DNA of 22,432 bases from a virus: the IMG/VR virus record IMGVR_UViG_3300018954_000007, positions 1 to 22,432 of that record; one strand, 5' to 3'. Shown here piece by piece: positions 1,632 to 12,417 of this stretch. The stretch's first letter is position 1, and each line of letters starts with the position of its first letter. Both the position numbers and the translations under genes were made by a program. A model generated the notes under the pieces. The model was given only the letters and a program-made list of their open reading frames with translations. It was not told the DNA's origin and searched no databases.

Positions 1632-2195
1632 TCACTCGGCGGCGTCGGGCGCCTCGTCCGCGCGCCGAGCTCCCGACGCGGGGGCGTCCTCCCCGTCCCG
1701 CGCTGGCTCCGCCAGCGCCTCGTCGATCGCCTCGAACACCGGGGCGAGCCGCGCCGCCGCCCGGTAGGCCTGGTACCGCGCCGACCAGCCCCGCAGCTCC
1801 CGCAGCGCGTTCCCCACCACCTGCGCCGCGAGCGTCTCCGACGCGAACACCTGCTCCGCAGGCCGGTACCCCCGGCTCTCGTCCTGGGTCACCACGTGGA
1901 ACGCCCGGGTCTCGATCGGCGCCTCCTCGGTCTGGACCACGATCCGGATCGACCGGATCAGGAACCGGGCGCGCTCCAGCCGGTGCGCCTCCGCCGCCTT
2001 CGCGTCGTCCCACTCGAAGTAGCCGTGCACCGGGCTCGCCGGATCCCGCGCCTCCTCGAGCAGGTCCTTCGCCCTCGCCGCGCCCCGCTCCGCCGAGAGC
2101 CGCTCCACCGTCTCGCCGATGACCGCTGCGTCCTCGTCGCGCAGCCGCGAGCCCGGCGCCGCGGTGTACCTCTTCGCCCCCGCCCCGCCGCTCAC
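1632..2195 (-). CDS. Conserved-type phage protein of unknown function
   Basis: About 187 aa from a GTG at 2195 that overlaps the TGA of the upstream gene (GTGA), so the two are probably translationally coupled. The core contains SPVHGYFEWDDAKAAEAHRL followed by an Arg-rich helix (ERARFLIRSIRI) and VVTQDESRGYRPAEQV. I recall this 'H.YFEWDD..AAE..R...AR.LIRSI' pattern from uncharacterised proteins in many phages, often close to recombination or replication genes. The C-terminus is an Ala/Glu/Asp-rich disordered tail, and that part is duplicated at the left window edge. Function unknown; pairing with the upstream gene suggests a joint role in phage DNA metabolism (inference). An upstream in-frame start at 2255 is unlikely because it would lie deep inside the preceding gene. 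Confidence 0.8.
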   Translation of the reverse strand: MSGGAGAKRYTAAPGSRLRDEDAAVIGETVERLSAERGAARAKDLLEEARDPASPVHGYFEWDDAKAAEAHRLERARFLIRSIRIVVQTEEAPIETRAFHVVTQDESRGYRPAEQVFASETLAAQVVGNALRELRGWSARYQAYRAAARLAPVFEAIDEALAEPARDGEDAPASGARRADEAPDAAE

Positions 2196-2818
2196 GCCAG
2201 ATCCCCCTCGGCCACGTCGAAGCGGCCGTGCTGCCCGTCCCGCTCCGGCCTCCACTCGCAGATGCCGACCGCGAATCCCGCGAGCTTGATCAGGTGCAGC
2301 ACCTGCGCGGCCGACAGCACCTGCGAGTTGAACTCGATCGGCAGGTCCACCGACCAGCCGAAATACTCCGGCCGATAACGCAGATCCGCGGTCCCCATGC
2401 CGATCCTGACCATGTCCTCGCGCATGACGACGCGCTCGTAGTTGAGCGGCAGCCGATCGCCGACGACGAAGATCGCGCCCCGGAGGACCGTCATCTTGAG
2501 GTCATCCGCGAAGCGCGCAGCCGACACGATCGCGCTCTTGAACGCTATTGCCGGAACGCAGTGCTGGTCCTTCTCGTCGATGTAGCGGGCAGCGAGGTAC
2601 TCGGCCTCCGGGTTTCGCGCCTCCTTCGCGGTCCGCGCCTTCTTCTCCTGCTTCTCCTTCATCTCGCGCTTGGCCTTCTCGGACCATGCGTGGGTGATCA
2701 GCGTGCTCGTGCCGACGACCTTGACCATCGTCCGCACCACCCTGATCGGCGGCAGCTGCACCAACTCCACGCCCTTCCCCTTACCATTCGTCTCCGCAGT
2801 AGCACTCGTCGTCGCCAT
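2192..2818 (-). CDS. Phage early protein, possibly Cas7/RAMP-like or ssDNA-binding
   Basis: 208 aa. The ATG at 2818 has AGGAG at about 9-10 nt upstream. Visible pattern: an N-terminal beta strand leading to TLITHAWSEKAKREMKEKQE, a Lys/Ala/Glu linker, ARNPEAEYLAARY, then VPAIAFKSAIVSAAR, a middle segment VVMREDMVRIGMGTADLRYR, and a C-terminal GFAVGICEWRPERDGQHG. I recall this set of motifs from widespread uncharacterised phage proteins. The overall layout, with a Gly-rich C-terminal 'G(I/V)GEWRPE..G..G.F', resembles RAMP/Cas7-type folds, but that is inference from memory and needs a profile search. It is followed with a 4-bp overlap by the 1632-2195 gene. Its presumed 5' leader contains the pentanucleotide repeat tract, with a promoter at 3379-3407. 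Confidence 0.85.
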   Translation of the reverse strand: MATTSATAETNGKGKGVELVQLPPIRVVRTMVKVVGTSTLITHAWSEKAKREMKEKQEKKARTAKEARNPEAEYLAARYIDEKDQHCVPAIAFKSAIVSAARFADDLKMTVLRGAIFVVGDRLPLNYERVVMREDMVRIGMGTADLRYRPEYFGWSVDLPIEFNSQVLSAAQVLHLIKLAGFAVGICEWRPERDGQHGRFDVAEGDLA

Positions 2819-2865
2819 TGCTTTCTCGCTCCTGTCCGTCGGTTGCTAAGCCATTCAAGAAAAGA

Positions 2866-3242
2866 CCGCGCCTTGCCTCACCCTGCCTGCCATGCCTCGC
2901 CGGGCCCAGCCAATCCATGCCGCTCCACGCCATGCCCCGCCACACCAGGCCCTGCCTAGCCTGCCCCGCCTTGCGATGCGTCGCCACGCCGCGTCCCGCC
3001 ACGCCTTGCCCCGCCTGCCTCGCCAAGCCCATCCTATCCCTGCCGCGCCCCGCCGCGCCGGTCCGCGCCCGGCCATGCCTGCCGCGCCACGCCGTACCGC
3101 GCCAGGCCGTGCCATACCGCGCCTCGCCCCACCGGGCCTTGCCTCGCCACGCCTGCCTCGCCATACCGGGCCAGGCCAAGCCTCACCATGCCATGCCCAG
3201 CCTGCCACGCCGAGCCAGGCCAGGCCTGCCACGCCGTTGCTA
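2866..3242. repeat. Degenerate pentanucleotide tandem repeat (GCCNN on plus, NNGGC on minus)
   Basis: About 375 bp made of roughly 75 five-base units in which GCC is largely fixed and the other two bases vary freely (for example GCCAT, GCCTC, GCCGG, GCCCA, GCCAA). Occasional 2- or 4-base indels shift the phase. Because 5 is not a multiple of 3, all reading frames cycle through the same pentad, giving long Trp/Arg/Gly/Ala/His-rich open frames (WRG, ARHG, AWPG types) on the minus strand and Pro/Ala/His/Arg-rich ones on plus. The tract is bounded by normal sequence on both sides and lies upstream of the 2192-2818 gene. Its role is unknown. Possibilities are a recombination or replication site, an RNA leader element, or an expanding slippage tract. 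Confidence 0.85.
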
Positions 3243-3277
3243 TGGCTATGCGGCCTGCGCCGCACTCGTGTGCGGGC

Positions 3278-3322
3278 GTGGCGCGCCCTCCGCTCCCGCA
3301 CGCAGGAACGGGGGCGCGCCAC
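3278..3322. promoter_or_regulatory. Inverted repeat at the head of the pentanucleotide tract
   Basis: GTGGCGCGCCC at 3278-3288 is perfectly complementary to GGGCGCGCCAC at 3312-3322, with a 23-nt loop. It lies between the minus-strand promoter (3379-3407) and the repeat tract, so it would be at the 5' end of the transcript. It could be an RNA stem-loop or a protein-binding site. It shares GTGGCGCGC with the palindrome at 1599-1621. Confidence 0.4.
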
Positions 3323-3378
3323 ATCCGCCGCTATCGTCTCCCCTCCGGTGCGCACCGCGCCGCCCCGTCGACGATCTA

Positions 3379-12076: not shown

Positions 12077-12417
12077 CAGGCGCCCTCCGCGAGCGGGCAC
12101 GGGGGCGATGGCGCGGCCGGGATGGTCGGCGCGCCAGGCGGCGCCGGCACGGGCAGCGCGACGTTGGGGCTCGGCACGGGCGGCACCGCGAAGCCGGCGG
12201 GGACAGGAGGCAGAGGCGGCGCGCTCATGGTGGGGGCTCCGGGGATGGGGGGCACGGGGACGGCGAGCGACGGCGACGGCACCGGCGGCGCGGGGAACCC
12301 CGCCGGGACGGGCGGCAGAGGCGGCGCGGCGAGCGTCGGGGCGCCCGGCGCCGCCGGCACGGGCAGCGCAACGCCCGGCGGCGCGACGTCGGGGAAGCCG
12401 CAGGGATTGCCGCTCAT
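12076..12417 (-). CDS. Proline-rich 35-residue repeat protein in the baseplate cluster
   Basis: 113 aa from the ATG at 12417 (ATGA overlap with the upstream stop). After MSGNPCGFPDVAPPG it consists of 2.7 tandem repeats of 35 residues. The repeat core is GAPTLAAPPLPPVPAGFP, then PPVPSPS, and it recurs with few changes. It is nearly all Pro, Ala, Val, Leu and Gly, with no signal peptide and no charged surface until the very end. I recall short Pro-rich proteins at this place, next to the spike gene, in some Mu-like phages, but know no function. It might be a polyproline rod or spike-associated linker (inference). The minus-strand overlaps on both sides and its place between spike and gp46 argue that it is a real gene and not a repeat artefact. 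Confidence 0.7.
   Translation of the reverse strand: MSGNPCGFPDVAPPGVALPVPAAPGAPTLAAPPLPPVPAGFPAPPVPSPSLAVPVPPIPGAPTMSAPPLPPVPAGFAVPPVPSPNVALPVPAPPGAPTIPAAPSPPCPLAEGA
12094..12372 (-). repeat. 105-bp in-frame tandem repeat in the Pro-rich gene
   Basis: Residues 16-50, 51-85 and 86-108 of the Pro-rich protein are successive copies of the same 35-aa unit, the last one truncated. The corresponding DNA units are 105 bp and still similar, for example the shared blocks encoding APPLPPVPAGF. Copy number may vary between relatives by slippage or recombination. Confidence 0.75.

Follow-up and report, generated by a model that had tools for sequence, protein, structure and literature searches.

A degenerate pentanucleotide tract beside a vipr gene in a viral contig is very probably a VIPR guide-RNA array, possibly punctuated by a four-base unit

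The virus record IMGVR_UViG_3300018954_000007 of IMG/VR (22,432 bp, analyzed over its whole length and called the window here) carries on its minus strand a degenerate five-base tract. Very probably this tract is an array of guide RNAs (vrRNAs) belonging to a VIPR system of a phage, with the gene at 2192-2818 encoding its Vipr protein. VIPR (Viral Interference Programmable Repeat) was described in 2026, and the main text of the preprint (PMC13142463) presents it as phage-borne Vipr proteins with vrRNAs of 9-16 YNNGG repeats, in seven types, in which the NN pairs of the vrRNA recognize DNA with one skipped base and rival phages are repressed. In that text, type II is found in Escherichia phage SUSP1 and in a Pseudomonas fulva prophage (PMC13142463; PDB 36pp). 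The observations made here are those of the array itself, its sense orientation, the homology and predicted fold of Vipr, the co-occurrence of array and gene, the guide-length spacing of GGCA units, and the gain and loss of cassettes.

The tract is a degenerate array with a period of five

As a preliminary description of this DNA had claimed, the tract at 2866-3242 has a genuine period of five. Its self-match at lag 5 was 0.591, against 0.353 ± 0.022 (maximum 0.433) in 2000 dinucleotide shuffles, and 39 GCC-GCC pairs at a spacing of five were counted, against 3.1 ± 1.7 (maximum 10) in dinucleotide shuffles; no other 200-base stretch of the window came near this GCC signal. A dynamic-programming parse resolved 76 units at 2863-3235, 69 of five bases and seven of four, in agreement with the roughly 75 units counted earlier. 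Read on the minus strand, the units follow the pattern GGYNN: the triplet is GGC in 60 units, GGT in eight, GGA in five and another in three, so that GGY is held by 68 of the 76 units and eight depart from it. The two bases that follow had been described as varying almost freely, and they do, 15 of the 16 dinucleotides being present in the array. We annotated 2863-3235 (minus strand) as a putative vrRNA array on the basis of the parse, the periodicity relative to the shuffles and the orientation shared with homologous loci, and its direction of transcription was taken as 3235 to 2863.

The NN positions have a G+C content of 51%, versus 60% at codon positions 1-2 and 93% at codon position 3 of the flanking genes; this is weakly consistent with guides that skip the wobble base, and a uniform NN would likewise give 50%. 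The 3′ flank between the array and the vipr start (2819-2862, minus strand) may, from its sequence, hold a tail and a ribosome binding site, AGGAG. No conserved 3′ tail or shared structure was recognized across the array loci, whose 3′ flanks differ, and no Rfam family matched the window or 11 array loci. Just ahead of the 5′ end of the array, as read on its sense strand, there is at about 3278-3322 a perfect-looking, GC-rich inverted repeat (GTGGCGCGCCC ... GGGCGCGCCAC), possibly a terminator or an RNA handle. Elsewhere in the window, a tandem repeat occupies 12125-12380 (105-bp unit, about 2.4 copies, 80% G+C), and the ORF product of 6323-6823 matches Dicty_CTDC repeats (E = 3.8e-10), which is unusual in a phage contig.

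The adjoining gene encodes a Vipr protein

The array is intergenic and lies on the sense strand of the vipr gene (2192-2818, minus strand), which sits 46 bp downstream of it. The tract had been placed next to phage early genes; what adjoins it is one specific family, Vipr. When the ORFs near arrays were clustered, one family, at a median distance of 46 bp, was found in 90 loci among the matches listed, and it includes the window gene, so that GCCNN arrays beside homologues of this gene do occur elsewhere. The gene encodes a 208-aa protein that was annotated as having a RAMP fold from its profile match to 36pp, its predicted fold and its assignment to PHROG phrog_4652, a family of unknown function that is matched by 58 of 59 aligned family members. 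When compared with the PDB, a profile of 59 relatives matched the SUSP1 Vipr protein 36pp with E = 3.5e-38, the next match being Csm5 at 0.34. The predicted structure of the window Vipr (AlphaFold, pLDDT 92.4) is nearest to Csm3/Cas7 subunits (Foldseek, E = 8e-6, probability 1.0), and VIA-align against Csm3 gave Z 11.8 with an rmsd of 3.5 Å over 153 residues; on this model, the protein is predicted to be a CRISPR RAMP closest to Csm3/Cas7. In addition, a C-terminal glycine motif, AGxxxGxGxxRP...GRF, which resembles the RAMP G-loop, is conserved in the family (G181, G185 and G187 nearly invariant, R190 and G198 invariant); a glycine-rich loop close to the C-terminus is a trait of VIPR. A search of IMG/VR with the window Vipr as a single protein and an alignment search were both unsuccessful, because the family is too divergent.

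Degenerate arrays co-occur with Vipr and change faster than their flanks

The pattern of nine exact GCCNN units was found in at least 120 stretches of IMG/VR, in contigs of 39-76% G+C. In 3002 units among the matches listed all 16 NN occur and neighboring units are almost independent: successive units had the same NN with a frequency of 0.098, versus 0.072 expected, and their mutual information was 0.099 bits, of which about 0.06 is estimated small-sample bias. A similar pattern in bacterial genomes retrieved mostly uniform slippage repeats, 113 of the 120 genome loci falling in the low-diversity class, and from these sequences the degenerate kind appears to be mainly viral. Uniform GCCNN microsatellites (e.g., GCCGA, GCCTT, GCCGT; loci L122-L241) are widespread in bacterial genomes.

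Vipr HMM matches were present in 85 of the 116 degenerate-array loci among the matches listed versus one of the 113 uniform genome loci (Fisher p = 5e-35), which bears out the earlier claim that the tract belongs with the gene at 2192-2818; the locus set was collected through arrays, and 85/116 is thus the share of arrays with Vipr and not of Vipr genes with arrays. The 31 degenerate-array loci without a Vipr match (among the matches listed), L056 and L118 included, may carry more divergent Vipr types, or the gene may lie beyond the fetched stretch or be truncated. On the Vipr-sense strand, GGCNN was read in 147 of 149 array neighborhoods of vipr and a second family (among the matches listed), and this consistency points to RNA as the active molecule. 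A structured leader RNA was among the earlier proposals, and its RNA part stands; a guide function had not been guessed.

Two pairs of loci, L072/L105 and L109/L113, have scrambled NN and arrays of different length, with GCC kept and with array-touching flanks that are 96-100% identical in stretches, as had been supposed for a GCC spacing under selection with two free bases; the L020 and L030 arrays differ in one small cluster. Because NN is scrambled where the flanks are nearly identical, these comparisons indicate that turnover of the putative guides outpaces mutation in the DNA around them. They also bear on the possibility that the tract is a decayed microsatellite, i.e., slippage copies of one pentanucleotide that were later point-mutated. 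Simple GCCNN microsatellites do exist, as the low-diversity genome loci attest, but all but one of the uniform arrays come without Vipr, successive units of the degenerate arrays are nearly independent, nearly every NN is represented in the window array, and even phages whose flanks are nearly identical keep GCC and are saturated with changes at NN. The probability of such a decayed repeat is, in our judgment, close to nil, and the near independence of the units and the tie of degenerate arrays to Vipr uphold the earlier remark that simple slippage does not explain the tract.

Four-base units divide the arrays into segments of guide length

The few indels that had been noted in the tract do exist, as seven odd-length units, but they are not random: all seven four-base units of the window array are GGCA on the minus strand, and they divide it into 4, 9, 14, 12, 10, 14 and 5 units. 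As read from the sequence, each GGCA-bounded segment would represent about one guide. In the parse, with every feature on the minus strand, the first GGCA (3227-3230) is followed by segment S1 (3207-3226), a partial guide of four units (CT CT TC GT), and the second (3203-3206) by putative guide S2 (3158-3202), of nine units (TG AT AT GA TT CT CC AT GA). The third (3154-3157) opens S3 (3084-3153), with 14 units (GT GA AA CC GG GA GC AT AC CT GC AC GT GC), and the fourth (3080-3083) S4 (3020-3079), with 12 units (AT CG GC CC GC GG GC AG TA TG TT GA). After the fifth (3016-3019) comes S5 (2966-3015), with ten units (GG AA GT GG GC GT GA AT AA GG), three of which are not GGY, after the sixth (2962-2965) comes S6 (2892-2961), with 14 units (TA AG CT GT GG AT GT GC AT TT TG CC GA AT), and after the seventh (2888-2891) comes S7 (2863-2887), whose five units run into the 3′ flank. 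With four and five units, S1 and S7 are below the 9-16 repeats of characterized vrRNAs.

Among the loci in the matches listed, odd-length units recur inside one array and are locus-specific. In the arrays among those matches, A is the last base in 178 of the 198 four-base units, and GGCA is found in most loci; other punctuation comprises GGCT (nine times in L115), GGCACCGCA (six times in L025), GGCATCGCA in L098, GGCTACCTCAG in L074 and GGTTCNN in L104. The internal segments between four-base units, 150 among the matches listed, hold 7-16 repeats in 81% of cases, whereas random cuts give 37% of segments with 7-16 units (maximum 49% in 1000 trials). Of 37 arrays, 13 have GGCA immediately ahead of their first unit. 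From the guide-length spacing of the segments and from the gain and loss of cassettes that end at GGCA (see below), we infer that GGCA is a guide border; it may act as a processing site, or as a protein stop or join.

Mycobacterium and Gordonia phages carry related loci

All nine Mycobacterium and Gordonia phages chosen by Vipr similarity carry an array. The Vipr proteins of the Mycobacterium (Cheoctovirus) and Gordonia phages are 37-41% identical to that of the window, and are accompanied by a GGCA-punctuated array and a phrog_15946 gene; the array lies before vipr in the Mycobacterium phages, as in the window, and after it in the Gordonia phages Ecliptus, ODay and Pipp. A comparison of copy number between strains had been suggested, and it is whole cassettes, ending exactly at GGCA, that differ among the Cheoctovirus arrays: Donkeykong has two more than Brocalys and Clifton, and Saal has one more than ByChance. 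One cassette that is present or absent between close relatives measures 59 bases (11 units plus GGCA). Saal/ByChance (L249, L250) and Donkeykong/Brocalys also share one guide with one or two NN changes, AT TC AT GC TT [TG/AG] AT TG GC [TA/GA] AT, whose conservation suggests a long-lived target.

The VIPR loci of these phages are annotated only as hypothetical proteins, and the Donkeykong array lies inside one of them, gp48 (L245, 2534-2920); Clifton gp44 (L248, 253-441), ByChance gp39 (L250, 313-471) and Gorge gp53 (L251, 303-467) are hypothetical proteins that probably also overlap arrays. The Trp-Arg-Gly-Ala frames that the preliminary description mentioned for other phages do exist, as translated arrays. 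It had also been considered that the tract is a coding repeat, i.e., that it encodes a repeat protein rich in Trp, Arg, Gly and Ala, of the kind that some phage annotations contain, and both the annotation of gp48 across its array and the open frames that span the tracts, such as a 166-aa ORF at 2855-3355 of the window, speak for it. At a period of five, however, the reading frame itself carries no information: only NN = TA yields a stop, so that open frames are expected on both strands. Moreover, the arrays lie mainly between co-directional genes, the seven four-base units of the window array shift the frame, the presence or absence of a 59-base cassette breaks any frame, and the annotations of other phages that carry the same array lack such a gene. 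A tblastn search of phages with the translated array found nothing. We regard a coding repeat as extremely improbable, and the mycobacteriophage hypothetical proteins over arrays are probably translated guide RNA and not genes.

A candidate accessory gene accompanies the punctuated arrays

The phrog_15946 gene of the window (1632-2255, minus strand; start codon uncertain) probably encodes a VIPR accessory protein (vap candidate), as judged from its co-occurrence with vipr and the array. Among the matches listed, the family adjoins vipr or an array in 23 loci, and it is present in 22 of 33 GGCA-punctuated loci versus 8 of 86 other array loci (p = 8e-10). The gene comes after vipr in Donkeykong, Ecliptus and Pipp (HMM E = 1e-39 to 1e-41). 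In Gorge, a single annotated gene, gp54 (L251, 504-1721), covers both vipr and the phrog_15946 gene, and is either a fusion or a frameshift relative to the sister phages. Foldseek gave no convincing match for the predicted phrog_15946 fold. The tblastn matches of the family in annotated phages were in Mycobacterium, Gordonia and one cyanophage record, with none in Escherichia; because annotated homologues are absent from Escherichia phages, the window system is probably not of the SUSP1 type.

Target searches gave matches at chance level

The guides that were searched yielded no natural target, and their matches were at chance level. Decoded guides, with skips of 0-3 bases, gave no excess of matches in 1.07 Mb of viral loci or in ten actinophage genomes. 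In IMG/VR, the S3 core pattern had two matches, in which only 1/10 and 3/10 of the units beyond the core fit, and the S4, S5 and S6 core patterns had none. The S2 core pattern matched five copies of one lineage in IMG/VR, and these were taken as chance because the single lineage is AT-rich (G+C 35-38%) and the matches are out of codon phase. A conserved mycobacteriophage guide had no match in IMG/VR, and neither this guide nor another one from Donkeykong/Brocalys was matched, with up to two mismatches, in about 400 genomes of a family centered on a Nocardia genome. IMG/VR and the searched genomes need not hold the target phage, and for this reason the null result neither supports nor refutes targeting.

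The same null result would suit a tract without a guide function that offers an oligomeric protein a platform to bind, as DNA or as RNA. TRAP, which this possibility resembles, binds (G/U)AGNN repeats, and the arrays likewise have a triplet with a two-base spacer, are strand-specific and lie beside one protein family. Neutral spacers, however, should change at the same rate as the flanks, but NN is scrambled beside nearly identical ones; the segments are of guide length and are gained or lost as cassettes, and homologous systems have been found experimentally to be RNA-guided, as the main text of the preprint relates (PMC13142463). We consider such a platform very unlikely.

Discussion

For a VIPR array in the window, the following mechanism can be proposed, in which RNA binding, the 1-nt skip and repression are carried over by homology from experiments on other VIPR types, as given in the main text of the preprint (PMC13142463). 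The minus-strand transcript would carry (GGYNN)n, and Vipr, a single-domain RAMP, would coat it, each subunit covering five bases, holding on to GGY and displaying NN. Double-stranded DNA would be recognized by several such pairs acting jointly, with one base skipped between pairs (NNxNNx), and the bound complex would repress a gene of a competing phage or prophage. Several guides would stand in one continuous array, separated by GGCA; in this proposal NN is hypervariable because new guides take over when targets change, and GGY is held by the protein.

More tentatively, and at somewhat less than even confidence, we suggest that such loci form a VIPR subtype in which many guides stand in one continuous array, a four-base mark (GGCA; elsewhere GGCT, GGCACCGCA, GGCTACCTCAG and others) sets the guide borders, and whole guides are gained, lost or swapped along the mark. 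This subtype would occur widely among phage contigs and also in Mycobacterium and Gordonia phages. If this is true, the punctuated subtype has a minimal grammar of guide memory that uses no CRISPR repeats and is tied to an accessory protein of its own (phrog_15946). VIPR has been proposed to be the ancestor of the CRISPR RAMPs and to serve as a weapon that phages use against each other. The window locus, together with about a hundred related contigs and the named mycobacteriophages, suggests that arrays with several guides are common and that guide turnover proceeds by cassettes with the flanks static, so that guide acquisition, the missing step from VIPR to CRISPR, would become testable in phages grown on the laboratory host M. 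smegmatis. It would also account for a class of annotated phage hypothetical proteins as translated guide arrays.

The VIPR system itself is already known (2026); the punctuated array and the accessory family may be new. With the SUSP1 and P. fulva systems, the window locus shares a homologous Vipr, GGY/NN repeats with hypervariable NN, a phage genome, an array beside vipr on its sense strand and an extra small gene beside vipr. It differs in having one continuous array of about 5-7 putative guides split by GGCA, whereas those systems have separate vrRNAs of about 100 nt with an invariable, structured tail, and in its accessory candidate, phrog_15946, whose tblastn matches in annotated phages include none from Escherichia. 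The main text of PMC13142463 makes no mention of GGCA, Mycobacterium or actinobacteria; it refers in passing, without giving a sequence, to "staggered arrays with overlapping vrRNAs", which are possibly the same architecture, with several guides per array. Of the traits of Class 1 CRISPR-Cas, identical direct repeats with unique spacers are absent from the array, whose units are five-base and degenerate, and no other cas genes were recognized among the scanned ORFs of the window. The window system shares with the Class 1 RAMPs (Csm3/Cas7) the predicted protein fold and, in the mechanism proposed, an RNA read by a periodic protein coat, but its period is five and not six, and it has one protein domain.
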